NCBI GenBank assembly: GCA_015075305.1
Contig: JABTUS010000011.1
Location: forward strand, 62,001-126,000
Length of the DNA stretch: 64,000 nucleotides
From: Opitutaceae bacterium
Lineage (GTDB): Bacteria > Verrucomicrobiota > Verrucomicrobiia > Opitutales > Opitutaceae
Direction: 5' to 3'
The notes beneath the pieces were generated by a model. The model was not told the DNA's origin, searched no databases, and saw only the letters and a program-made list of their open reading frames with translations. Below, one piece after another: positions 1-12,104 of the stretch (positions are counted from its first letter, which is position 1; the number at the start of each line of letters is the position of its first letter). The position numbers and the translations under genes were made by a program.

Positions 1-819
1 CACCCCAGCTCGATCGCGTCATCAATCGCGGTTGCAGCGGAGAACGGGCGCCAGTTGCGCGACTTCATCAGCCCGGAGGCATGGGTCCTGCTCAGCCGAC
101 TTGCGAACAAGATCAATTCGCTTCAGCAGGGCCATCTGACTCCCGGCAGAAAGCGGAAAAACGCGTCGCAGGCGATGAACCTGGTTCTCACGGATGTGAA
201 CGCGTTCATTGCCACCGCCGAACGCACGATGTTGATGGATGCAGGCTGGGAGTTTTTTCTCATGGGATGCCACCTGGAGCGGGCCATCATGGCCTGCAGC
301 GCGCTGCGCCCGATCCTGGGCAAACTTGACGACCTCGCCGCCGGTCAGGGAACCCCCGAACTTGTCGCGCGAGCCCGGTCCGGCGATGCTCCCGAACTGT
401 CCGCACTTCTTCGCATGCTGGGTTCCCAGGACGCCTACCGGCGCCTCTACCAGTCGGCCAGCCAGCCGGGTTTGGTGACAGCGCTTTTTCTAGTGCAGGA
501 AAACGTACCGCGCAGCCTCATGTACAATCTTCAGCGGATCCGGCGCAGCGTGCGCGTCGTCGCCACGAGCACTCCCCAGGAGCAGGATGAGGCCGTCGTC
601 GCAGCTGTGGACGAGCTGCTCCGGTTTCTGCGCGAACTGCCAATCCAGGACTTTTTTCGGGCGCGAAAGACGCAGGAGAGCTCCGCAGACTCAGCAAGAT
701 CAAGTCTTGGCGAACTGCTCGCGCATCTGCTCGACCGCCTCTTCGATCTCCATCCCCTGCTAAGCGATCACTACTTCAGCCACCAGGCGCGGGCCCTTCA
801 GCGCGCTACAACCGGATAA
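1..819 (+). CDS. alpha-E domain (DUF403) protein, C-terminal part, cut by window edge
   Basis: The reading frame is open from base 1 to the TAA at 817-819, so the true start lies outside the window. The protein is almost wholly alpha-helical and carries the features of the alpha-E (DUF403) family: an N-terminal Ala/Glu-rich helix reading AVAAENGRQLRDFISPE, then the 'ER' pattern (FIATAERTMLMDAGWEFFLMG.HLERA) typical of the family. In other bacteria such genes sit beside circularly permuted ATP-grasp and transglutaminase-like genes, in a presumed peptide-modifying system; those partners would be to the left. The last 14 bases overlap the convergent ABC exporter gene. Biochemical role unknown. 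Confidence 0.85.
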   Translation, partial: HPSSIASSIAVAAENGRQLRDFISPEAWVLLSRLANKINSLQQGHLTPGRKRKNASQAMNLVLTDVNAFIATAERTMLMDAGWEFFLMGCHLERAIMACSALRPILGKLDDLAAGQGTPELVARARSGDAPELSALLRMLGSQDAYRRLYQSASQPGLVTALFLVQENVPRSLMYNLQRIRRSVRVVATSTPQEQDEAVVAAVDELLRFLRELPIQDFFRARKTQESSADSARSSLGELLAHLLDRLFDLHPLLSDHYFSHQARALQRATTG

Positions 820-2860
820 TCTGATCCGCACAATGGCAGAATGCCTGGCGATGACAGGCGACAATTGCAGTGATCCCGGCGCCCACGCGGCGTCGAATCG
901 CCGCCACGACATGCTGTTCCGATTCATCCTCAAGTGCAGACGTGGGCTCATCCAGCAGCAAAAGGGGTCCACTCCGATAGAATGCCCGGGCAAGGGCAAG
1001 CCGCTGCCGCTGACCTCCTGAAAGATTTGCCCCGCCTTCCTGCAGCCAGGTGCCAAACTTGTCGGGGAGCGACTCTATCCAACCGAGCACATTCGCATCG
1101 CGGCATGCCTCCAGGAGGCGGGCGACATCGGGTGGGCCACCGTCGGGAATCAGGTTGTCCATGACCGAGCCCGAAAACAGCTCCACCCGCTGGGGCATCA
1201 CGGCCAGGCCCCTTCGCAATCCATCAAGGGAAAAATGCTCGAGTCCAACACCTCCGATTGAGACCCGGCCTTGAGTGATGTCCTGGCTCGCCTGCAACAC
1301 AGCCAGTATGGTGCTCTTTCCGCAGCCTGATGCCCCAACGAGCACCGTCAGCGTTCCCCTTCGGAACACCGCGGAAAACTCGCGCAGCACAGGCAGCCGG
1401 CCCGGGTGCTGCACCGTGACGCTTTCCCATTCAATGTCTCCCATTGTTTCCGGGTTCAGCATTCTCACTCCCCCTGTCGGTTCCGGCTGAAGATCGACGA
1501 TTTCAAAGAGCCGGTCGGTCGCAACCATGGCCTCCTGCACGGAGGAGTTCAGCGATACCAGCGACGACGCCGGGCCAACAAGATAACCCGCCAGCGTGTA
1601 CGCGCTCATCAGCTCACCCATTGAAAGGTGCTGCTGCAGAACAAGCCATCCTCCGATCCAAAGAGTTCCCAGCGTATAAAGCTGCGTTGAAGCCTGGTTG
1701 AAAACCCCGAGCCAGAGTCCCGCAGTCACAGCCCCGCGATGCGCACGTAGCAGTCTCACAAGCTGCTGCTCTCCCCGCTCCGCTTCCCTATCCTCAAGGT
1801 TCATGGCGCGCACCGTCAGGTGGGTCTGGAGCGACTCGGCCAGATGGCCCTGCCATTCGGCCGCCCGCACCATGAGCAGCCGCTGCGCCCGCCGGTTTAC
1901 CACATTCGCAACGGGATACATCATGCCCTGCAGAACAATCAGTCCTCCAGCCAGCGCGCCGAGGCGCCAGTCGTAGAAAAACAATCCCGTCAACGACGCT
2001 GCTACAATCAGCGGATTGAGAAGCAGACTGACGAGCGTCTGGTTTATGAAGGTGCGTATGCGGGCGGCGTCACCCACGCGCGATAGCATCTCTCCAACAC
2101 GCATGCCGTCATGAAAGGCACGGGGAAGCCTGAGCAGGTGTCGATAATAGCCAAGCATGAGCACAGCATCGATCCTCTGGGCGAGCCTCAAGCCTATGCG
2201 TCCCTGAAGCCAGGTGAGCACTACCCGCGCGGCAATCACTCCCAGCATGCCCGCGCCCAGAAGCACCAGCATGCGGCTGTCCTGATCGGGAAGAACCGAG
2301 TCGAGCAGCTTTTCGACATACAGCGACATCGCCAGCCCCAGAACTGTCGCCAGAGCCGCCCCGAGACCGGCCTGCAGGAGCAGAGACCGGTGAGGATGGA
2401 GAAGTCTGGCAAGACGGCTCCAGGGAGATTCGGCTGCCGCCCCGGGGTCGCCCTTCACAATTTCCCCTGGCTTCGGTGAAACCAGCAGAAAGACTCCACT
2501 GCTCATTCCGGTGAGCTTCTCCCGCGGCCACCGGCAGGAGGAGCCCACCGCCGGATCCATCACCCGAACGTTCCTTCCGTTCACCTTTTCAAGAACAACG
2601 TAGTGATGCAGGTGCGACGGAAGGACGACATGAGCCACGACAGGAAGCGGCAGGTTCCCAAGGTCCGCGGGTGACGTCCGCACTCCTGCGACACTCAGCC
2701 CGGCCTTCTCTCCGGCCTGCACGAGACCGAGGGCCGTTGTACCGGATCTCCCGGTGCCGCTCCATTGGCGGAGCTGTGCAACCGCCTGGGGTCGCCGATA
2801 GCGCCGGCACAGGTAGGCGAGGCAGGTCGGACCACAATCGCTCTGGTCGCGTTGCTTCAA
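806..2860 (-). CDS. C39 peptidase-containing ABC exporter (PCAT, double-glycine peptide export)
   Basis: 684 aa, three modules. Residues 1-135 are a C39 bacteriocin-processing peptidase: Q3 and C9 in QRDQSDCGP (oxyanion Gln six residues before the catalytic Cys), the His in SHLHHYVVL and the Asp of MDPA. Residues 150-430 are an ABC membrane domain. Residues 450-684 are the ATPase, with GASGCGKST (Walker A), LSGGQRQRLALARA (signature), LLLLDEPTSALE (Walker B) and a His-switch ACHRQ. Such enzymes cut leader peptides after Gly-Gly and export the product across the inner membrane. The start is a TTG at 2860; no ATG or GTG precedes Q3 in frame, and the nearest upstream in-frame stop is the TAG that ends the peptide gene (2912-2914). 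Co-oriented with the leader peptide and HlyD genes; ends convergently inside the DUF403 gene. Confidence 0.92.
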   Translation of the reverse strand: MKQRDQSDCGPTCLAYLCRRYRRPQAVAQLRQWSGTGRSGTTALGLVQAGEKAGLSVAGVRTSPADLGNLPLPVVAHVVLPSHLHHYVVLEKVNGRNVRVMDPAVGSSCRWPREKLTGMSSGVFLLVSPKPGEIVKGDPGAAAESPWSRLARLLHPHRSLLLQAGLGAALATVLGLAMSLYVEKLLDSVLPDQDSRMLVLLGAGMLGVIAARVVLTWLQGRIGLRLAQRIDAVLMLGYYRHLLRLPRAFHDGMRVGEMLSRVGDAARIRTFINQTLVSLLLNPLIVAASLTGLFFYDWRLGALAGGLIVLQGMMYPVANVVNRRAQRLLMVRAAEWQGHLAESLQTHLTVRAMNLEDREAERGEQQLVRLLRAHRGAVTAGLWLGVFNQASTQLYTLGTLWIGGWLVLQQHLSMGELMSAYTLAGYLVGPASSLVSLNSSVQEAMVATDRLFEIVDLQPEPTGGVRMLNPETMGDIEWESVTVQHPGRLPVLREFSAVFRRGTLTVLVGASGCGKSTILAVLQASQDITQGRVSIGGVGLEHFSLDGLRRGLAVMPQRVELFSGSVMDNLIPDGGPPDVARLLEACRDANVLGWIESLPDKFGTWLQEGGANLSGGQRQRLALARAFYRSGPLLLLDEPTSALEDESEQHVVAAIRRRVGAGITAIVACHRQAFCHCADQIIRL

Positions 2861-2911: not shown

Positions 2912-3112
2912 CTAGATGTCTGCCACCAATCCATAGGCTTCAAGAAACTCCCCCATTGAGTATGGCGTGAAGACTTCTCTCACTCCCAAATCAGCCCGAG
3001 GGCTGATGCCGGGAGGGAATAGCTCGTCATTGAGCGGCGCAAATCCGCCATGAATGGCGGCCAGATCTGACATAGGAACAGCTTTCATTTTATTTTGGTC
3101 ATTTGGGTTCAA
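2912..3112 (-). CDS. Small double-glycine leader peptide (putative exported peptide/bacteriocin-like precursor)
   Basis: A 66-codon gene between the HlyD and C39-ABC genes. Residues 14-23 (MSDLAAIHGG) match a double-glycine leader, with hydrophobic residues near -4, -7 and -12 and cleavage expected after G23. The mature part would be 43 residues (FAPLNDELF...), without Cys, acidic (7 Asp/Glu, 2 Arg), aromatic and Pro-rich, and ending in VADI. Three starts are possible: TTG 3112, ATG 3088 (residue 9, giving a 15-residue leader) or ATG 3073; no strong ribosome site separates them. Nothing in the mature peptide resembles a known bacteriocin or modified-peptide family that I can name. The function (toxin, signal or other) is unknown; the export route is inferred from its neighbours. 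Confidence 0.72.
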   Translation of the reverse strand: MNPNDQNKMKAVPMSDLAAIHGGFAPLNDELFPPGISPRADLGVREVFTPYSMGEFLEAYGLVADI

Positions 3113-3131
3113 TCTTCAGTTTCACCCGACC

Positions 3132-4403
3132 TCACAAAGCGTGGGCCGGATTTGAAGAAATGCGTCTGAGTGCCTGGTGGCTGGGCGGTCCTTGGTCGGG
3201 TTGAACCGCATCCCCCGAGATCCAGTCAGCCACATTGCGGCGCAGCAGCGTGAGCAGGCTTGCACGGCCCAGATCGAACCGAACCTCCGCGACAAAGCCC
3301 TTGCGCAATCGGGCGACCCGTCCATCGCGAGTGCGAAGCGCCGATTGCTGCGGTTTGAGCACGATCCGATACGATGGTTCGGAAGTCCCGGGAGAAACGT
3401 CCGGCGCGAGTTCCTCCACCTCGGCGTCCATCAGCCCCCATTCGGTTGCCGGAAGCGCCGTCACGCTCATTCTCGCCCGCTGCCCGGGCTGCACCAAGGC
3501 GCACACTCGCGGCGGCACACGACCTTCAACCCGGAAATCGTCGTCCGTGGAAATTGAGCCGAGCACCTGCGAGGCGACCACGACAGCACCCGGCCGCAGT
3601 GGCGCAAGATCCATCAAAAAACCTCCCACCGGAGCTCGAAGCACAAGAGTCCTCAACTCCTCCTCCACCTGTTTCAACTCCCCCTCCAGGGATCGCCCGC
3701 GTTGCTCCGCATCCCTTCTCTGCGCCGTCGCTGAAGCGGCCTGCCGATGGCGCGCAAGGGAACGAGCGCGTTCATCCGACTCAGCCGCGCTTCTGGCCGC
3801 ATCCCGCTCCCTGTCGCTGACGAGCCCCCGCGCCGCGAGCTTTTCAATCCGTTCCAATTCGCGGGCCGACTGGGCTGCGGACGCGACCAATGCGGCATCA
3901 CTGGCGACCCACTCATCCCAAAGCCGCCTCGCCCAGGAAGTATGAAAGCCCAGGCTTTCGCGCTGGGTATCGCGGTCATTCCCTTCGAGGCCTTCGGAGA
4001 AAGTGATCCATTCCTGGGCCTGAAACCGATACGCATCGCATTCGGCGGTCAGGGCGTCCCGTCGCGCCTTCAATGCGGGATTGGCCAGCTCGACCAGCGG
4101 CTGACCGGCGACAACCCGGTCGCCCGTCCGAACATACACGCTGTCCACGGAGGCGGTGGCCGGACTGCGCAATTCGGCATTCTCCGTACGCGTCCGCACG
4201 ATTCCCCAAGTGCGGACCGTCACATCCACCCGGATTGTCACCAACGCAGCCACTCCCGCCATCAACAGGCCGAGGAATATCCCCACTACCCACGGCCGTT
4301 CCGGCCCCGCCTCCGCTTCCAGCGCCGCCACCGTGTCACTCGCAGCCGACGCAGACAGCCAGCGCTGTGAAGCGGCGGCGGATTGGGACAGCGATGAAGG
4401 CAT
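3132..4403 (-). CDS. HlyD-family periplasmic adaptor (membrane fusion protein)
   Basis: 423 aa from ATG 4403 (a GTG at 4439 would add 12 residues). One transmembrane helix near residues 40-60 (GIFLGLLMAGVAALVTI), then a barrel-sandwich half motif (SPATASVDSVYVRTGDRVVAGQPLVEL), a long Ala/Arg/Glu-rich coiled coil (about residues 120-240), the second lipoyl half (LVLRAPVGGFLMDLAPLRPGAVV) and a beta-barrel region. These proteins link an inner-membrane ABC exporter to an outer-membrane channel. It is the first gene of the cassette, 19 bp upstream of the leader-peptide gene, so the three genes are probably cotranscribed. No TolC-type gene is nearby, so the outer-membrane component would be supplied from elsewhere. 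Confidence 0.88.
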   Translation of the reverse strand: MPSSLSQSAAASQRWLSASAASDTVAALEAEAGPERPWVVGIFLGLLMAGVAALVTIRVDVTVRTWGIVRTRTENAELRSPATASVDSVYVRTGDRVVAGQPLVELANPALKARRDALTAECDAYRFQAQEWITFSEGLEGNDRDTQRESLGFHTSWARRLWDEWVASDAALVASAAQSARELERIEKLAARGLVSDRERDAARSAAESDERARSLARHRQAASATAQRRDAEQRGRSLEGELKQVEEELRTLVLRAPVGGFLMDLAPLRPGAVVVASQVLGSISTDDDFRVEGRVPPRVCALVQPGQRARMSVTALPATEWGLMDAEVEELAPDVSPGTSEPSYRIVLKPQQSALRTRDGRVARLRKGFVAEVRFDLGRASLLTLLRRNVADWISGDAVQPDQGPPSHQALRRISSNPAHAL

Positions 4404-4703
4404 GGAGGCACCGTGGGGCGGGAGAGATGAAATACCCACATCGCAAATGCACGAAACGAGAGGCCACCTGCGCCCCTATTTCGGATGAACCGCCACCCCT
4501 GCGCAGGTGTGCCTGAGGCCCCTGCGCAAGGGTGACAGCACACTTCCTGGAGCACACGAATCCTTGTCTGGAAACAACCTGTCCCTTTTCCGGCTTCGCC
4601 AGGCCCCAGCGTGCAGAAGTCATGGGAACACAGGGGCAGGTTGGGATCGCCGCTCCCTCGATGCTCCTGCCGCCCCCAATCCTTCTGGAATCAGGGGTCT
4701 TGA

Positions 4704-5222
4704 TCAGCCCTTGGGGAGCACGCGATTGATCAACATTCGGTACGGCGGCAGCAGGACGAACGCCATGGCGAGTTTGATGCCCAGATCGCCTGTTGCCAGA
4801 TGCAGCCAGCTGATCGCGGTGCCCGCAAAGGCCAGACTGAAAAAAATCGCGGTATCAATGATCGACGCAGCACATGATCCAAGCAGCGGCGCCTGCCACC
4901 AGGTCCTTTTCCTCAACCGGTTGAAGATCGCAACATCCAGCAACTGCGAGACGATGAACGCCGTGCCCGACGCCACGGCAATCCGAAGGGGTGCAAGCAT
5001 CGCCGAACTGACCAGCCCGGCGGCAAATCCCACCCATGCGATCCGACGCGCCGCCTGCGGACCATGGAGGCGGTTGCAGACATCGGACACAAAGTAAGCG
5101 ACCGGATAGGAAAAGGCGCCCCACGTGAGCCAGGCGTTGAGCGGAAACTGCACCAGCCAGTTCGACAAAAGCACGATGGCGGCCATCGCCACCGCCGGAA
5201 CAAGAAGCTGGCGCGCTGTCAT
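4704..5222 (-). CDS. Queuosine precursor transporter, YhhQ/VUT (DUF165) family
   Basis: 172 aa with about six hydrophobic helices. The family pattern is visible: an N-terminal LVQFPLNAWLTWGAFSYPVAYFVSD segment, then the cytosolic GPQAARRIAWVGF loop, and charged or polar intramembrane residues (SQLLDVAIFNRLR, SIIDTAIFF). YhhQ proteins import queuine or preQ precursors for tRNA modification; this is family knowledge and was not tested here. It lies 264 bp upstream of the HlyD gene on the same strand; that gap has no gene I can support and probably holds the promoter of the export cassette. Confidence 0.82.
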   Translation of the reverse strand: MTARQLLVPAVAMAAIVLLSNWLVQFPLNAWLTWGAFSYPVAYFVSDVCNRLHGPQAARRIAWVGFAAGLVSSAMLAPLRIAVASGTAFIVSQLLDVAIFNRLRKRTWWQAPLLGSCAASIIDTAIFFSLAFAGTAISWLHLATGDLGIKLAMAFVLLPPYRMLINRVLPKG

Positions 5223-5956: not shown

Positions 5957-7020
5957 ATGAATAATAACATACATAAAATAGATGGTGAGCGTGTCGCTGT
6001 CGAGATGGCGATGACGGTTAAGTTGGGGCTGGATCTGCACGCCAGGGATGTGGTGGTCTGCCGTCAGAATGACGGGCAGCAGCCGAAGCCAGTGTGCAGA
6101 ATGACGCACAAAGAGTTGCTGGATCTGGTTGCGGGGCTGATCGCTGCAGGACACCGTGTGGAGAGTTGCTACGAGGCCGGACCGTGCGGATACGGGTTGC
6201 ATCGCAAGTTGATCCAGATGGGAGCGCGCAATCGGGTGATCGTGCCTCGGAAATGGGACGCGGAAGGCAGGCGTGTGAAAACTGATCGCAGGGATGCCCG
6301 GGATCTCTGTGATGCGCTGGACCGATACCTGCGAGGCAGCACCACTGCCTTTTCGGTGTGTACGTTCCGACGGAGGAACAGGAAGAGACCTCGAGCGTTG
6401 GGTCGGCAGCGGGGAATGCTGGTGAAGGAGCGCCAGCGCTGTGTGGTGCGGGGTCACGGCCTGATGCTGACCGCCGGTGTGCAGGCGGATCCAGACTGGT
6501 GGCATCCCAAGGCCTGGGTGAGCTGGCGAAGACATTGCCGCCGGAGCTGCGCGCACGGATAGAGACCGGCAGCGTCAAGCGCTGCATTTTGAATCCGAGA
6601 TAGAAGCGTGGACCAAGCGGGTTGAGAGTATGGGCGAGAAACAGATTCTGGTGAAAGGACTGGGTCTGCTCACGAACACACCCTGGAATGGAGGTGTGCG
6701 ATTGGGCCCGCTTGGCGGTCGTCGAAAGGTGGAGGGTACAGCGGATTGCGCCGAGTGGAGTACTCGACGGGGACACGTCGCCGTCAGGGCAGCATCCCAA
6801 GCACGGAAACCCTCGAATGCGTCACCTGCTCGTCGAGGCCGCCCGGCGTCTGCTGCGCTGGCAGCCCGACTACCCTCCGCTGAAAAAATCTGCGCCAGGC
6901 GCTCGGCGCCCGCACGCAAACGAGCCGTGGTCGCAGTCGCGCGACGGCTCGCAATCGATTTGATGGCGCATCCACACCGGTCGCTGCACGCCCGAACAGC
7001 TGGGCCTGAAAGTGGGTTGA
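5957..7020 (+). pseudogene. IS110-family transposase, frameshifted (copy A)
   Basis: The N-terminal half is readable from about 6005 as an IS110 DEDD/RuvC-like domain: VKLGLDLHARDVVVC, ESCYEAGPCGYGLHR and TDRRDARDLCDALDRY. Single-base shifts then break the frame: a lost base near 6357 (compare ggtgtgtacg here with ggtggtgtacg in copy B), an extra base near 6391, and others around 6510-6900. The C-terminal transposase_20 part is still recognisable in pieces: GHVAVR, then [20 protein letters not shown], ending at the TGA 7018-7020 after EQLGLKVG. Non-functional as given, unless the indels are sequencing errors. The segment from 6090 onward is repeated in tandem downstream. Confidence 0.85.
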
Positions 7021-7303
7021 GCGCCTAAATGGGACTTTGGTGGCGGGGCGGAGTGTGTTCGTCATGCCCCTTGGTGAACCCCGTCTCCGAGATCGAGCCG
7101 CTTTGTCTCCGCCACTACTCTTCCGCATAAGTCATCTTAACGGCGCACATCACGCGCTTTGGATAGCAGGTTGGACCGTCAGTTGCGCTGACGTGTCAGC
7201 GGCGGAGAACGTCCCCGGCGCCACAATCCCAATTCCCTTTTCAACGCACGTCCACAGCGTGCGAAGGCGCACTTTTCGCTTGATTGCCATTTCGGCTTCA
7301 TAG
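6090..7303 (+). repeat. Tandem direct repeat, unit A (1214 bp)
   Basis: Begins at cagtgtgcagaatgacgcac inside the transposase and runs through its 3' end plus about 280 bp of noncoding DNA to ttcggcttcatag. Unit B follows immediately. The two differ mainly by one- or two-base indels in short homopolymers plus a few substitutions, yet have the same overall length. Confidence 0.88.
7021..7303 (+). ncRNA. Structured noncoding end of the IS110 element; possible bridge RNA region (copy A)
   Basis: This 283-bp gene-free stretch directly follows the transposase stop and is preserved in both repeat units. It contains clear hairpins: GTCAG-TTGCG-CTGAC at 7178-7192, with an overlapping GCTGAC-GT-GTCAGC at 7187-7200, and CGCACG-TCCACAG-CGTGCG at 7245-7263. 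IS1111-type members of the IS110 family carry a guide (bridge) RNA in the right-hand noncoding end; assigning that role here is inference from position and foldability. Confidence 0.35.
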
Positions 7304-8235
7304 CAGTGTGCAGAATGACGCACAAAGAGTTGCTGGATCTGGTTGCGGGGCTGATCGCCGCAGGACACCGTGTGGAGAGTTGCTACGAGGCCGGACCGTG
7401 CGGATACGGGTTGCATCGCAAGTTGATCCAGATGGGAGCGCGCAATCGGGTGATCGTGCCTCGAAATGGGACGCGGAAGGCAGGCGTGTGAAGACTGATC
7501 GCAGGGATGCCCGGGAGATCTGTGATGCGCTGGACCGATACCTGCGAGGCAGCACCACTGCCTTTTCGGTGGTGTACGTTCCGACGGAGGAACAGGAAGA
7601 GACTCGAGCGTTGGGTCGGCAACGGGGAATGCTGGTGAAGGAGCGCCAGCGCTGTGTGGTGCGGGGTCACGGCTTGATGCTGACCGCCGGTGTGCAGGCG
7701 GATCCAGACTGGTGGCATCCCAAGGCACCGGAGTGAGCTGGCGAAGACATTGCCGCCGGAGCTGCGCGCACGGATAGAGACCCGCAGCGTCAAGCGCTGC
7801 ATTTTGAATCCGAGATAGAAGCGTGGACCAAGCGGGTTGAGAGTATGGGCGAGAAACAGATTCTGGTGAAAGGACTGGGTCTGCTCACGAACACACTCCT
7901 GGAATGGAGGTGTGATTGGGCCCGCTTTGGCGGTCGTCGAAGGTGGGAGGGTACAGCGGATTGTGCCCGAGTGAGTACTCGACGGGGACACGTCGCCGTC
8001 AGGGCAGCATCTCCAAGCACGGAAACCCTCGAATGCGTCACCTGCTCGTCGAGGCCGCTCGGCGTCTGCTGCGCTGGCAGCCCGACTACCCTCCGCTGAA
8101 AAACTGCGCCGGGCGCTCGGCGCCCGTGCACGCAAACGAGCCGTGGTCGCAGTCGCGCGACGGCTCGCAATCGATTTATGGCGCATCCACACCGGTCGCT
8201 GCACGCCCGAACAGCTGGGCCTGAAAGTGGGTTGA
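7304..8235 (+). pseudogene. IS110-family transposase, 5'-truncated and frameshifted (copy B)
   Basis: Starts within the transposase at the codons MTHKELLDLVAGL, so it lacks the first DEDD motif present in copy A. It keeps ESCYEAGPCGYGLHR, DRRDAREICDALDRY and, in other frames, [22 protein letters not shown] and EQLGLKVG with a TGA at 8233-8235. Its frameshifts differ from those of copy A: a base is missing near 7463 (cctcgaaatggg against cctcggaaatggg), while the VVYVPTEEQEETRALGRQ stretch that is broken in A is intact here. A consensus of the two copies nearly restores a full frame. Confidence 0.85.
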
Positions 8236-8519: not shown

Positions 8520-8544
8520 GGGGCATGCTTTGTCATGCCCAGGG
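8520..8544. repeat. Dispersed palindrome, GGGCATG-CTTTGT-CATGCCC type
   Basis: A perfect 7-bp stem with a CTTTGT loop. The identical sequence occurs at 47883-47903, where it sits in the same composite element as the GGGCACG-N6-CGTGCCC hairpin. Confidence 0.75.
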
Positions 8545-8689
8545 TTCGGCCACCGCGTCGCCGCGCCGGTTCATTCTGCATTCAATCTCCATCCCAACTT
8601 CACGCTTTCCCTTCCTTTTCCAATCCTCCCAATCCCGGATCGATTTCGGACGTGCTCCTGCAGGGAAAACCGCAATTCTCCCGAGCAGA

Positions 8690-9571
8690 ATGCCTCGCGT
8701 CCGTCGCAACGAATTCGCCTACCTGCCGCTGGCCGGTGCCGATATTCGAAGAGAACTTTATGTCACCGGTTGGGGAGTGGCTGACTACGACCCGGGCGAA
8801 ACCTACCCGCATCCAGGCCACCCGGAGGACTATGATTTTCATTGGGAACGCGGCCGTGTACTGGGGGACTTTGCCGTTGTCCTCATCTCGCGCGGCGAGG
8901 GTGAGTATGAGGATCGGCGGCTGGGCCGGCTTCCCTGGCGTGCGGGAGAGGTGCTGCTGCTTCCGCCGGGGCAGTGGCACCGCTACCGGCCGGGACGCGG
9001 TACCGGGTGGGCGGAGGCATGGTGCACGATCAACGGCGAATACCTGCATCGCCTGCGCGCAAAGGGAATTTTCCCCCGCTCCGCATGCCTGCGCCGCCTG
9101 GGCGATCCGGCGGCCTGCCAGCGCGCGCTGACCCGGCTGCGTGCGACTGCGGAAAGGAACAGCCTGCTCGTGGAAAGCCGGGTGTTTGAGGTGCTGGCCC
9201 ATGCGCTTGAGGACCGTGCCACGAACGACGATCCAGCCGGGCCCGCCGCGACCGGCCAGCCATCGGTGGATCAGGCGCTCGAATTCATCTGGTTGAATTG
9301 TCACCGGCCGATCGACGCCGCAGCTGTCGCACGAGAGACCGGCACCGCCCTGCGAACGCTGGAGCGGCACTTTTCAACCGCCCACGAACGCAGCCCATCG
9401 GCGGAGATTCGCTGGTGCCGCACCCAGCGCGCCATCGTCATGCTCCGCGAAAGCCGGATGAGCGTGAAGGAGGTCGGCTACGCGTGTGGCTTTGGCGGCG
9501 CAAAGGGCCTCACCCGCGCCCTGCGCACACTCCATGCCCGCTCGCCGTCGGACTACCGATCGACGGATTGA
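8690..9571 (+). CDS. AraC-family transcriptional regulator
   Basis: 293 aa from ATG 8690 (the frame is open further upstream through low-complexity, non-protein-like sequence, so the internal ATG is preferred). Residues 30-120 form a cupin-like sensing domain (WRAGEVLLLPPGQWHRYRPG is the typical AraC_binding segment). Residues 190-290 are the double helix-turn-helix: PIDAAAVARETGTALRTLERHF, then MSVKEVGYACGFGGAKGLTRAL. Regulators of this kind usually sense a sugar or oligosaccharide and activate adjacent catabolic genes. The next gene downstream on the same strand encodes a secreted beta-helix protein, a plausible target. Confidence 0.9.
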   Translation: MPRVRRNEFAYLPLAGADIRRELYVTGWGVADYDPGETYPHPGHPEDYDFHWERGRVLGDFAVVLISRGEGEYEDRRLGRLPWRAGEVLLLPPGQWHRYRPGRGTGWAEAWCTINGEYLHRLRAKGIFPRSACLRRLGDPAACQRALTRLRATAERNSLLVESRVFEVLAHALEDRATNDDPAGPAATGQPSVDQALEFIWLNCHRPIDAAAVARETGTALRTLERHFSTAHERSPSAEIRWCRTQRAIVMLRESRMSVKEVGYACGFGGAKGLTRALRTLHARSPSDYRSTD

Positions 9572-9743: not shown

Positions 9744-12104
9744 ATGACACCGAGATATTCATCGTTGCTCAGTCGCTCATCCGTGTTGCACGCAATGCCC
9801 GGAAGGCTCCGTTGGTTGATTCAAGGCCTTGCGGCGATCCTTTGCATGCCTGGGGGCGGACTGATCGCGCAGCCCCCATCGCCGCAGGACGCATTCAGAC
9901 GCACGGTCAGCGTTGTCGAGGCGACCGGTCGCCATGTACGGGAACGGGCGGGCAACAAGGAGCTTCTCGCCCTCGGATTGCTGGACGTCACCGCCGCGCC
10001 CTATTCGGCGGATCCCACCGGCCATCGCGATTCGACCGCCGCACTCCAGCAGGCTGTCAAGGATGCGCGCGACGCCCAGCTGATCGCCCATCTCCCGGCG
10101 GGGCGCTATCTCGTCTCAGATACAATAGAGGGCGTTCAAGGCGAGGTGGCCTGGGATTCCTGGCCCTACGAGGGTTTTGCGGATGCCTGGGTGGCAACGG
10201 CGTCGTTTGAGTATCCCTGCGTGCTGCGCGGACCGGCGGAAGGAAGGCGCGCTGTGCTGGTTCTGGCCAATGGGTCCAAGGGATTCTCCAATCCGGAAAA
10301 GCCCAAGCCCTTGGTTCACCTGTGGGCTCGGGCGTGGGATGAGACGTTCAAGGGCAAGCCCCAGCCGAGCATCAATTTCAACCAGATGATCGTCGACGTG
10401 GATTTCGAACTCGGCCGCGGCAATCCAGGCGCTGTGGCCATTCATCATGAAGGCGCGGAGGGCTCCGTGATCGAGGATGTGTCCATAGATGCAACGGGGG
10501 CGTTTGCTGGCATCCAGACCGCGCCGGGATCGGGAGGCGGCATTCACGGGGTAGCCATCCAAGGCGGGCGCTATGGCATGTTTGTTCGCGAGACAAACAC
10601 GGGCATGCGGGCCAGTCAGCCCAGCCCGGTCATGAGTGGATTGCGGCTGAACGGGCAGACGGAGGAGGCCATCCTCTACGATGGACGCGGTCCGCTCACC
10701 GTTGTGGGGGCGACGATTGTGGGCGCGGGCATTCGGGTCGATGTGCCGGTGCCGGAGAGTTCCAACGGCGCAATCAATCTGGTCGATGTCGCGATTGAAC
10801 TCTCGCGGCCTGGGCCGGCGATTCGTGCGAATCGTACGGTTGTGATTTCAAATGTCTGGATCGCCAACGCGGCGGTTGCCGTGGAGGTCCAGAATGCGGT
10901 GAAGCTGCCTGGCCGAGAGCGCGGGTGGCTGCACATCGAGGAACTCGCCGCACCCGCCACCCTGCCGCTGCACTCCCTCGCGGGCAAGGGCATGCACACC
11001 GACGAAGTCTGGATCGATGGCGTCAGGAGTGCGCTGGCGACGAAGGCCCGGCCGCTCGACGAACCGCCCGATCGCGAGGCGCTTTGGCGGCGGCACCTGT
11101 GGTCCCAGCCGTTTCCCTCCCGGACGACGCCTGGTGCGGTGAACGTCATGGCCGCTCCGTTTGGAGCCAGAGGAGACGGCAGGCACGACGACGGCCCCGC
11201 ATTGCAGGCGGCCATCGATGCGCATGAGATCGTTTTTCTCCCGCAGGGCGTCTATGCCGTGTCCAAGCCCCTGCGGTTGCATCCCCGGACGAAGCTGATC
11301 GGCGTGGGCAACATTCAGGCGACCATCACGGCATTGCCTGAATCAGTGGCTTTCGGCGACCCTGACAATCCCGCTCCCCTGGTTGAAACCGATGACGATG
11401 CCTCAGCCGAAACCGTGCTGGCTTTCGTGCGGCTGCTGGTGCCGGTTCGCAATCCCTGCGTCTATGCCCTCCGCTGGCGGGCTGGCCGACGATCGATTGT
11501 CAGAAGCGTCTATCCCATCCGCGAGAAATGGCATCCGCATGCGCCACCAATGAATCACCCCATGGTGCGCATCGAGGGCTCGGGAGGCGGGCGCTGGTTC
11601 ACGACGGTGCTGCTGCATTGGTGGTCCCAGGGGCCCGACTACCGGCACCTGCGCATTGAGGGCACGCGGGAACCCCTGTCATTCTACATGCTGGAAGCCG
11701 AACACGGCCGGGGCACGACATTGATGGAGTACCACGACGCCCGGAACATCGAGGTCTATTCGATGAGGACGGAGGGCGATTTTGGCGTGCTCACGATGAG
11801 GCAGTGCGAGAACATACGCATATTCGGGCTCTCCGGCAATATCATGGCCTCGCGCGGCTATTCCCTGTTCACCATCGAAAACTGCCGCGACTATCTCGTG
11901 AGCAACGTCGACACCTTCTACAAGCGACTCGGCCACTGGGGTGCACTGGGCACCGCACACGCGCCGCAGCTCTGGTACCGGCTTGTCGAACGTCCAGGCG
12001 CAGGGATTCCCGAGACAAGAATTCCAGGCACGGATCAGATCGCGCTCTACCAGCGCGGTCAGCCCACGGGGCAGGGAGAGCGGGCCTCGACGCAGCACCG
12101 CTGA
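9744..12104 (+). CDS. Secreted right-handed beta-helix protein with two Pectate_lyase_3-type modules
   Basis: 786 aa (769 if it starts at ATG 9795, which puts the signal peptide first: MPGRLRWLIQGLAAILCM...GLIAQ). Two modules begin with the GH28/Pectate_lyase_3 signature: YSADPTGHRDSTAALQQAV near residue 90, followed by LPAGRYLVSDTI, and FGARGDGRHDDGPALQAAI near residue 475, followed by LPQGVYAVSKPLRL. Between and after them are many short hydrophobic beta-coil repeats. It is exported and probably acts on a plant or algal polysaccharide; I cannot name the exact substrate or catalytic residues. It follows the AraC regulator by 172 bp. Confidence 0.82.
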   Translation: MTPRYSSLLSRSSVLHAMPGRLRWLIQGLAAILCMPGGGLIAQPPSPQDAFRRTVSVVEATGRHVRERAGNKELLALGLLDVTAAPYSADPTGHRDSTAALQQAVKDARDAQLIAHLPAGRYLVSDTIEGVQGEVAWDSWPYEGFADAWVATASFEYPCVLRGPAEGRRAVLVLANGSKGFSNPEKPKPLVHLWARAWDETFKGKPQPSINFNQMIVDVDFELGRGNPGAVAIHHEGAEGSVIEDVSIDATGAFAGIQTAPGSGGGIHGVAIQGGRYGMFVRETNTGMRASQPSPVMSGLRLNGQTEEAILYDGRGPLTVVGATIVGAGIRVDVPVPESSNGAINLVDVAIELSRPGPAIRANRTVVISNVWIANAAVAVEVQNAVKLPGRERGWLHIEELAAPATLPLHSLAGKGMHTDEVWIDGVRSALATKARPLDEPPDREALWRRHLWSQPFPSRTTPGAVNVMAAPFGARGDGRHDDGPALQAAIDAHEIVFLPQGVYAVSKPLRLHPRTKLIGVGNIQATITALPESVAFGDPDNPAPLVETDDDASAETVLAFVRLLVPVRNPCVYALRWRAGRRSIVRSVYPIREKWHPHAPPMNHPMVRIEGSGGGRWFTTVLLHWWSQGPDYRHLRIEGTREPLSFYMLEAEHGRGTTLMEYHDARNIEVYSMRTEGDFGVLTMRQCENIRIFGLSGNIMASRGYSLFTIENCRDYLVSNVDTFYKRLGHWGALGTAHAPQLWYRLVERPGAGIPETRIPGTDQIALYQRGQPTGQGERASTQHR

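Follow-up and report, generated by a model that had tools for sequence, protein, structure and literature searches.

What does a small export cassette in a member of the Verrucomicrobiota secrete, and does it do so for its own product only? The window analysed here (a whole stretch of 64,000 nucleotides from an Opitutaceae bacterium) holds a short frame flanked by the genes of a HlyD adaptor and a C39-peptidase ABC exporter, and a preliminary description had read these three genes as a self-contained cassette for an uncharacterised double-glycine peptide. We call gamma the double-glycine peptide encoded between HlyD and exporter in the window. Translation of the window gives the frame at 2912-3112 on the minus strand as described, and the sequence and Pfam domains confirm both the position of the 66-codon frame between the two export genes and the acidic, Cys-free character of the 43-residue core. 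The features of the cassette and its upstream neighbour are as follows.

806..2860, minus strand: C39-peptidase ABC exporter (PCAT), with PF03412, PF00664 and PF00005

2912..3088, minus strand: probable gamma precursor, 58 codons from the ATG at 3088, placed by homologue alignment and conservation

2915..3043, minus strand: predicted gamma core FAPLNDELFPPGISPRADLGVREVFTPYSMGEFLEAYGLVADI, 43 residues, net charge -5, four of its five prolines in the first half

3044..3088, minus strand: predicted gamma leader MKAVPMSDLAAIHGG, 15 residues, hydrophobic at -4, -7 and -12, Asp at -8

3132..4403, minus strand: HlyD-type membrane fusion protein, with PF16576 and PF13437 (TIGR01843 below cut-off)

4704-5222, upstream of the cassette: queuosine-precursor-transporter-like gene (PF02592)

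The frame and the core of the preliminary description stand, but not its 66-codon start at TTG 3112. The ATG at 3088 (58 codons, 15-residue leader) is the likely start, because it is there, at an ATG-Lys, that the alignment of the three closest homologues begins, and the precursor is probably MKAVPMSDLAAIHGG/FAPLNDELFPPGISPRADLGVREVFTPYSMGEFLEAYGLVADI. In G055 and G082 the ATG matching 3088 is the earliest start codon of the gamma frame; in G169 the frame stays open further upstream. The leader was compared with the double-glycine consensus M(R/K)ELX3E(I/L)X2(I/V)XG(G/A), as given in an excerpt of PMC3140520. The core has seven Asp/Glu, two Arg and no Cys. This acidity had been called unlike most class II bacteriocins, which holds, but it is not unusual beside the microcins, a group with mostly neutral or anionic members in the available part of PMC10233263. 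No Pfam or NCBIfam model matches the window gamma, and an AlphaFold model of it, of low confidence (mean pLDDT 61), is mostly unordered with a short C-terminal helix only.

The HlyD, gamma and exporter genes follow one another on the minus strand with intergenic gaps of 43 and 51 bases. The exporter (806-2860) has the Cys, His and Asp motifs of C39 peptidases together with the Walker A/B motifs and the LSGGQ signature. Assignment to the NHLP/NHLM export system (TIGR03796/TIGR03794) was rejected, at 336.1 versus 853.3 bits for the exporter and 25.3 versus 156.2 for the adaptor. An Alpha-E protein is encoded downstream of the cassette in convergent orientation; neither it nor the queuosine-precursor-transporter-like gene has the look of an immunity or modification gene. 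As had been described, no immunity or modification gene was recognised by Pfam among the scanned cassette neighbours; nor, in a scan that was not exhaustive, were modification enzymes recognised among the scanned neighbours of the gamma locus and of the alpha/beta locus introduced below. On the cassette's upstream side lie two similar broken IS110-type transposase frames in tandem (5957-6562 and 7284-7736, plus strand; PF01548 at 24.3 and 27.3 bits, cut-off 29), where a repeat search found no ungapped direct repeat of at least 200 bases. Beyond them an AraC-type regulator (8525-9571, plus strand) precedes a pectate-lyase-like (rhamnogalacturonase) protein (9744-12104, plus strand), perhaps a pectin-use pair.

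Homologous short frames at the same place in related cassettes were looked for and found. A single-sequence search with gamma at E <= 1 gave some match in 56 of 200 sampled family genomes. Judged by score, only three of these are convincing besides the window genome's own, namely G055, G082 and G169 (same place; E 3.9e-17, 2.5e-15 and 9.6e-14). Weak matches in G183, G123, G105, G140 and G155 also lie at the same place, adjoining the exporter or an exporter remnant; most other weak matches look like chance. A profile search finds a gamma homologue in all ten genomes of the genus, although the profile was built from nine gammas, those of nine of the ten genomes, so that only G155 (E 4.2e-18, no row given to the profile) is an independent find. 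Over the whole family the profile reaches 19 of 252 genomes at E <= 0.05, the ten of the genus and nine weak ones; among the latter, G060 and G142 (E ~0.03) have GGFAPL peptides preceding a related exporter.

The gamma dN/dS is 0.09–0.31 in all six pairs of the four nearest genomes, which confirms, by sequence comparison, a real gene under purifying selection. Across the same genomes dN/dS is 0.00–0.10 for alpha and 0.00–0.17 for beta, the two peptides of the second locus, with the zeros being pairs of infinite dS (two for alpha, one for beta). A conserved leader joined to a hypervariable core, as anticipated in the preliminary description, was rejected: among the four nearest genomes nonsynonymous differences are 0.11–0.24 in the leader and 0.02–0.34 in the core, about equal conservation. 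F(A/E)PL opens the core and (A/V)D precedes its last residue in all seven genus members of the gamma alignment; the cores of G007, G140 and G155 begin FLP- and have different endings. The earlier suggestion of a new secreted peptide of the Verrucomicrobiota is borne out to the extent that gamma represents a new, conserved and probably secreted peptide family of this phylum.

PF03412 occurs exactly once in nine of the ten genus genomes, including that of the window, and not at all in G155. There the exporter gene is absent after about 19 codons, with conserved flanks and open gamma, alpha and beta frames, which reflects either a recent loss or an assembly fault; at the site where the exporter belongs (L162, about 6155-6162) 2.3 kb are missing relative to G007. 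No HlyD gene stands directly upstream of gamma in G007, G140 or G155, and in G007 the gene there encodes a PLP-dependent decarboxylase of lysA type (PF02784/PF00278).

Weak gamma-profile matches in G140 and G007 pointed to a second locus with two more double-glycine peptides; in the window genome (G000) a profile search places these peptides at the following positions.

C1:270838-271008: alpha, double-glycine peptide

C1:270669-270821: beta, double-glycine peptide

Alpha is found in nine of the ten genus genomes and beta adjoins it in the same nine, by profiles whose rows came from G007, G140 and G155, with none from the other six. The pair lies ~271 kb into contig C1, which is 1.05 Mb long, and C11, of 207 kb, carries the exporter; provided that the contigs are correct, the distance between the two loci is some 300 kb or more. 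In the window genome gamma, alpha and beta all have double-glycine leaders; the predicted alpha core begins EPFSLS, the beta core GGEPVY or EPVY. The C-terminal end of alpha in the genus is about DIYxHWGEFKxAVADGWNN, and beta has the motif DxGQF(V/I/L)G. The exception is G123, which keeps gamma and PCAT but has no alpha at E <= 0.05; its beta match (E 0.029), within a 420-residue frame, is weak and not credible. Outside the genus alpha is rare, with matches at E <= 1e-4 in three of 337 sampled genomes of the phylum, all of the same family, and one of these (G040) is partial, inside a 193-residue frame.

Two further genes accompany the pair. A delta-like frame of 37–59 residues, which contains W-x-x-(I/L)-K and a single hydrophobic stretch, lies 3' of beta in 8/8 loci examined, by a search pattern written after several deltas had been seen; its position, size and single hydrophobic stretch make delta a candidate immunity protein. 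Beyond delta, again in 8/8 loci, is a GerE/LuxR-type regulator (GerE 22.5–27.7 bits, seven of eight over the cut-off of 23.5), whose receiver-like domain falls below the Pfam cut-off in all eight genus members. At what is presumably the phospho-Asp position of the receiver, seven of the eight genus regulators (L151 3458-4405, minus strand, and its orthologues) have Ser and one has Gly; the regulator of G060 has Asp. A POT-family transporter adjoins the locus divergently in all four cases tested.

In their features alpha and beta appear class-IIb-bacteriocin-like. The alpha model has a 22-residue helix followed by a 13-residue helix (mean pLDDT 76). The best 17-residue mean hydropathy is 1.54–2.42 in nine alphas and 0.84–1.80 in nine betas, versus 0.24–0.75 in four gammas; neither GxxxG nor, in the four checked for hydropathy, a strongly hydrophobic stretch was found in gamma. 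A strict GxxxG is present in eight of nine betas and five of nine alphas checked, but is missing from four of five genus alphas, that of the window genome among them. The window-genome alpha and beta have cores of 42 and 45 residues with net charges of -3 and -4, and 16 gamma or gamma-like cores range from 0 to -6 with at most one Cys. Against NCBIfam at E <= 1, six of 13 alphas touch the class IIb model TIGR03949 (best E 1.3e-5) and two of 13 touch NF038034 (lactococcin G-beta), with per-member scores for the first only; two of seven genus betas touch the partner family NF038035 (lactococcin G-alpha), the window beta at E 0.011 with 15.8 bits against a cut-off of 37. The G096 alpha passes the TIGR03949 cut-off (22.9 vs 21.5), the G060 alpha does not (13.4), and the G096 beta reaches 21.0 of 37 for NF038035 (E 2.6e-4) and 19.2 of 27.1 for PF10439. 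The window-genome alpha has no NCBIfam match, and the genus alpha and beta scanned have none in Pfam. Some alphas and betas touch matching partner models of the lactococcin G and cerein 7B families (NF038034, NF038035, TIGR03949), but mostly below cut-off, with the window alpha unmatched and with cores that are net negative.

In other genera of the family the peptide genes adjoin those for export. In five genomes of two sister genera (G060, G142, G086, G016 and G184) a single row holds HlyD (tested with Pfam), a gamma-type double-glycine peptide, alpha, beta and PCAT. The gamma-like peptides of G060, G142 and G086 are GGFAPL peptides; those of G016 and G184 are called gamma-like by place, proline and mostly charge, not by homology. 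A receiver-LuxR gene stands directly upstream of HlyD in G060 and G086, and in G060 a delta-like 41-residue frame precedes PCAT and an OEP gene is near the row. Elsewhere the arrangement varies: G177 has HlyD, alpha and beta in a row (a partial locus), and G096 has alpha and beta before PCAT and an acidic, proline-containing double-glycine peptide after it. A further acidic, Trp-rich double-glycine peptide lies downstream of the G096 exporter (L167, 7793-7960). Of 22 exporter relatives (L031-L052), 19 are preceded within 1.5 kb by a double-glycine peptide, while a pattern search found none upstream in G022 (contig start), G085 and G153. The peptides of G161, G040, G113 and G015 are different and mostly hydrophobic, that of G015 lying beside a gamma-like one. 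At E <= 1e-110, exporter relatives were found in nine of 372 sampled genomes of the order, and the one outside the family (G258) has no convincing double-glycine peptide beside it.

The two loci of the genus may also share a control element. A palindrome like CCCTAATNNGGG occurs upstream of alpha in 8/8 loci, 124–249 bases before the start, at sites chosen by eye, and the window has a similar one.

4474..4485, no strand assigned: palindrome-like CCCTATTTCGGA, some 70 bases before the ATG of HlyD, a match to the symmetrised matrix

With a symmetrised matrix made from the alpha-upstream sites of other genomes, 4474-4485 ranks first of 63989 window positions; with the first, unsymmetrised matrix the site was only joint 4th–5th. 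Within its own locus the HlyD-upstream site ranks first in the window genome, G082, G183 and G123 (shuffle p 0.020, 0.045, 0.002 and 0.002), second in G055 (0.070) and third in G169 (0.037), these six genomes being related and the matches in G055, G082 and G169 being weak and at differing places. The comparison covers genomes with a HlyD inside the contig, leaving out G105, G007, G140 and G155 (contig end or no HlyD), and the symmetrised matrix found no palindrome upstream of the G060 and G086 operons. An exact pattern, set after two known sites had been seen, matches three times in the genome versus four for its backward control, and so carries no weight as a test. The third exact site (G000:C1:188530, L179) is about 20 bases before a 380-residue frame that looks secreted by eye, and no double-glycine peptide was noticed there. 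The shared palindrome suggests that the exporter operon and the alpha locus could be co-regulated.

We consider it reasonably probable, on the strength of gene content and arrangement, that the HlyD, gamma and PCAT genes of the window are the export operon of a genomically split multi-peptide double-glycine system with a shared exporter. The PCAT of the window genome would probably also ship the remote alpha and beta, because the genome has a single C39 domain yet encodes two unlinked double-glycine peptides besides gamma. The self-contained unit of the preliminary description is not supported: the only C39 exporter of the genome probably also serves an unlinked alpha and beta, which come with a candidate immunity protein and a regulator. 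In the scheme we propose, the C39 domain would cleave each of the three precursors, gamma, alpha and beta, behind the GG of its leader. Export of all three peptides would run through the ABC/HlyD complex and an outer-membrane channel whose gene would lie elsewhere. Alpha and beta would act together on competitor membranes, like a class IIb or Cdz pair, as their hydrophobic helix, glycine spacing and the Trp near the alpha C end suggest, and delta, a one-helix protein, would give the producer immunity. Gamma, lacking a membrane-inserting stretch, would be a soluble accessory peptide, an inducer or a helper, and not a stand-alone toxin. Both operons would be activated by the remote LuxR-type regulator, acting on the palindrome that they share. 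The parts can be separable, or else the G123 and G155 assemblies are faulty, since G123 lacks alpha and beta and G155 lacks PCAT.

Several other readings concern what gamma does, and the likelihoods we give them overlap with that of shared export. It is possible, if only tentatively so, that gamma is an inducing pheromone which, like BIP (BlpC) with BlpAB in pneumococcus, is made and exported with its own exporter operon, and which is sensed at the surface and raises alpha/beta expression. The regulator at the alpha/beta locus and the palindrome common to both operons agree with this, as does the greater divergence of gamma when the window genome is compared with its three closest relatives (pN 0.27–0.32 versus 0.12–0.13 for alpha and 0.17–0.20 for beta). 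At 43 residues, though, gamma is long for a pheromone, and the absence of the usual phospho-Asp from the receiver in 8/8 genus regulators makes a classic kinase relay unlikely. In pneumococcus, as described in part of PMC7595303, BIP is likewise encoded with the exporter and the BIR genes lie apart, with a separate set of bacteriocin peptides, accompanied by immunity proteins, that use the same exporter; the Blp system differs in its membrane histidine kinase BlpH, no histidine kinase having been recognised among the scanned neighbours of our two loci, where the receiver is degenerate. Blp also belongs to a Gram-positive host and has no HlyD, unlike the window cassette. A more specific version, in which gamma shares the PCAT with a two-peptide bacteriocin and activates both operons via a phosphorylation-independent LuxR-type regulator, seems to us quite unlikely; if true, it would be a double-glycine peptide quorum system of the Verrucomicrobiota, in a Gram-negative-type bacterium.

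Slightly less likely is that gamma belongs to a three-peptide toxin, as a third subunit without which alpha and beta would not kill. A gamma-like peptide, alpha and beta do occur together in the five genomes of two other genera, all three window-genome peptides combine a double-glycine leader with a net negative core, and 5% of Cdz-like systems are predicted to have three potential toxins in the portion of PMC5380434 available. Against this, gamma lacks GxxxG and has a hydropathy well below that of the nine alphas, and its place in the genus is beside the exporter, away from alpha and beta. We regard it as unlikely that the peptides are social or surface peptides like EbfG1-4 of Synechococcus elongatus, several double-glycine peptides that need one C39 peptidase transporter, PteB, and enable biofilm formation (PMC4997328, in excerpt). 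This precedent resembles gamma, alpha and beta by arrangement, and the retention of gamma in all ten genus genomes under purifying selection is not the patchiness expected of weapons; delta, which resembles an immunity protein in place and size, and the several alphas and two betas that touch two-peptide bacteriocin families point the other way. That the cassette serves gamma alone, with alpha and beta leaving by another route, is very unlikely: in the genus no convincing double-glycine peptide other than gamma lies in the 1.5 kb upstream of the exporter, and G123 has gamma and exporter without alpha and beta, but a PF03412 search found no second C39 domain in the genome, and other genera place alpha and beta between related adaptors and exporters.

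The split multi-peptide system that we favour has a close described parallel in Cdz of Caulobacter crescentus (CdzAB, CdzC/CdzD and CdzI; this comparison follows the accessible part of PMC5380434). The likeness is by description: a type I exporter pair, two small peptides and a small membrane immunity protein (a candidate in our case), with exporter and peptide genes in two operons and no outer-membrane channel gene in the cluster. Cdz-family peptides have leaders ending in G[G/A/S] and GxxxG motifs. The Cdz operons are neighbours, whereas the loci of the window genome are unlinked; CdzC and CdzD have 86 and 84 residues with the leader, against alpha and beta cores of 42 and 45 with weaker glycine zippers; and an acidic, proline-rich third peptide, present here as gamma, is not described in that part of the paper. 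Class II microcins of the MccV type likewise combine a double-glycine precursor, a C39 PCAT and a membrane fusion protein (PMC9746304, in part), and here gamma, alpha and beta have such leaders and the PCAT, with its C39 catalytic residues, is accompanied by a membrane fusion protein. Microcins, in the sources as far as available, have a cognate immunity protein near the peptide; beside gamma none was recognised, and there is instead the remote two-peptide locus. Two adjacent double-glycine peptides, as in class IIb, are found in nine of the ten genus genomes, and a phosphorylatable response regulator as in Blp is not, the receiver Asp being absent in 8/8. Two things appear to be new, the division of the system over unlinked loci and the presence in its exporter operon of a conserved third peptide that is acidic and rich in proline. 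Among the papers listed in a literature search, covered mostly by titles and the beginnings of abstracts, none showed such a system in the Verrucomicrobiota or a measured activity of it.

These results bear on how such systems are found. The survey of Cdz-like systems considered small proteins encoded no more than about 10 kb from the exporter, according to the available text of PMC5380434. A neighbourhood search of that kind would see gamma alone and call the cassette self-contained, because hundreds of kilobases separate the exporter from the bacteriocin-like pair. The GGFAPL peptides form a conserved family that has no model in Pfam or NCBIfam, and the three peptides point to a three-peptide weapon or signalling system. 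The window offers a testable case, from the little-studied Verrucomicrobiota, in which a split locus is probably served by a single C39 exporter.
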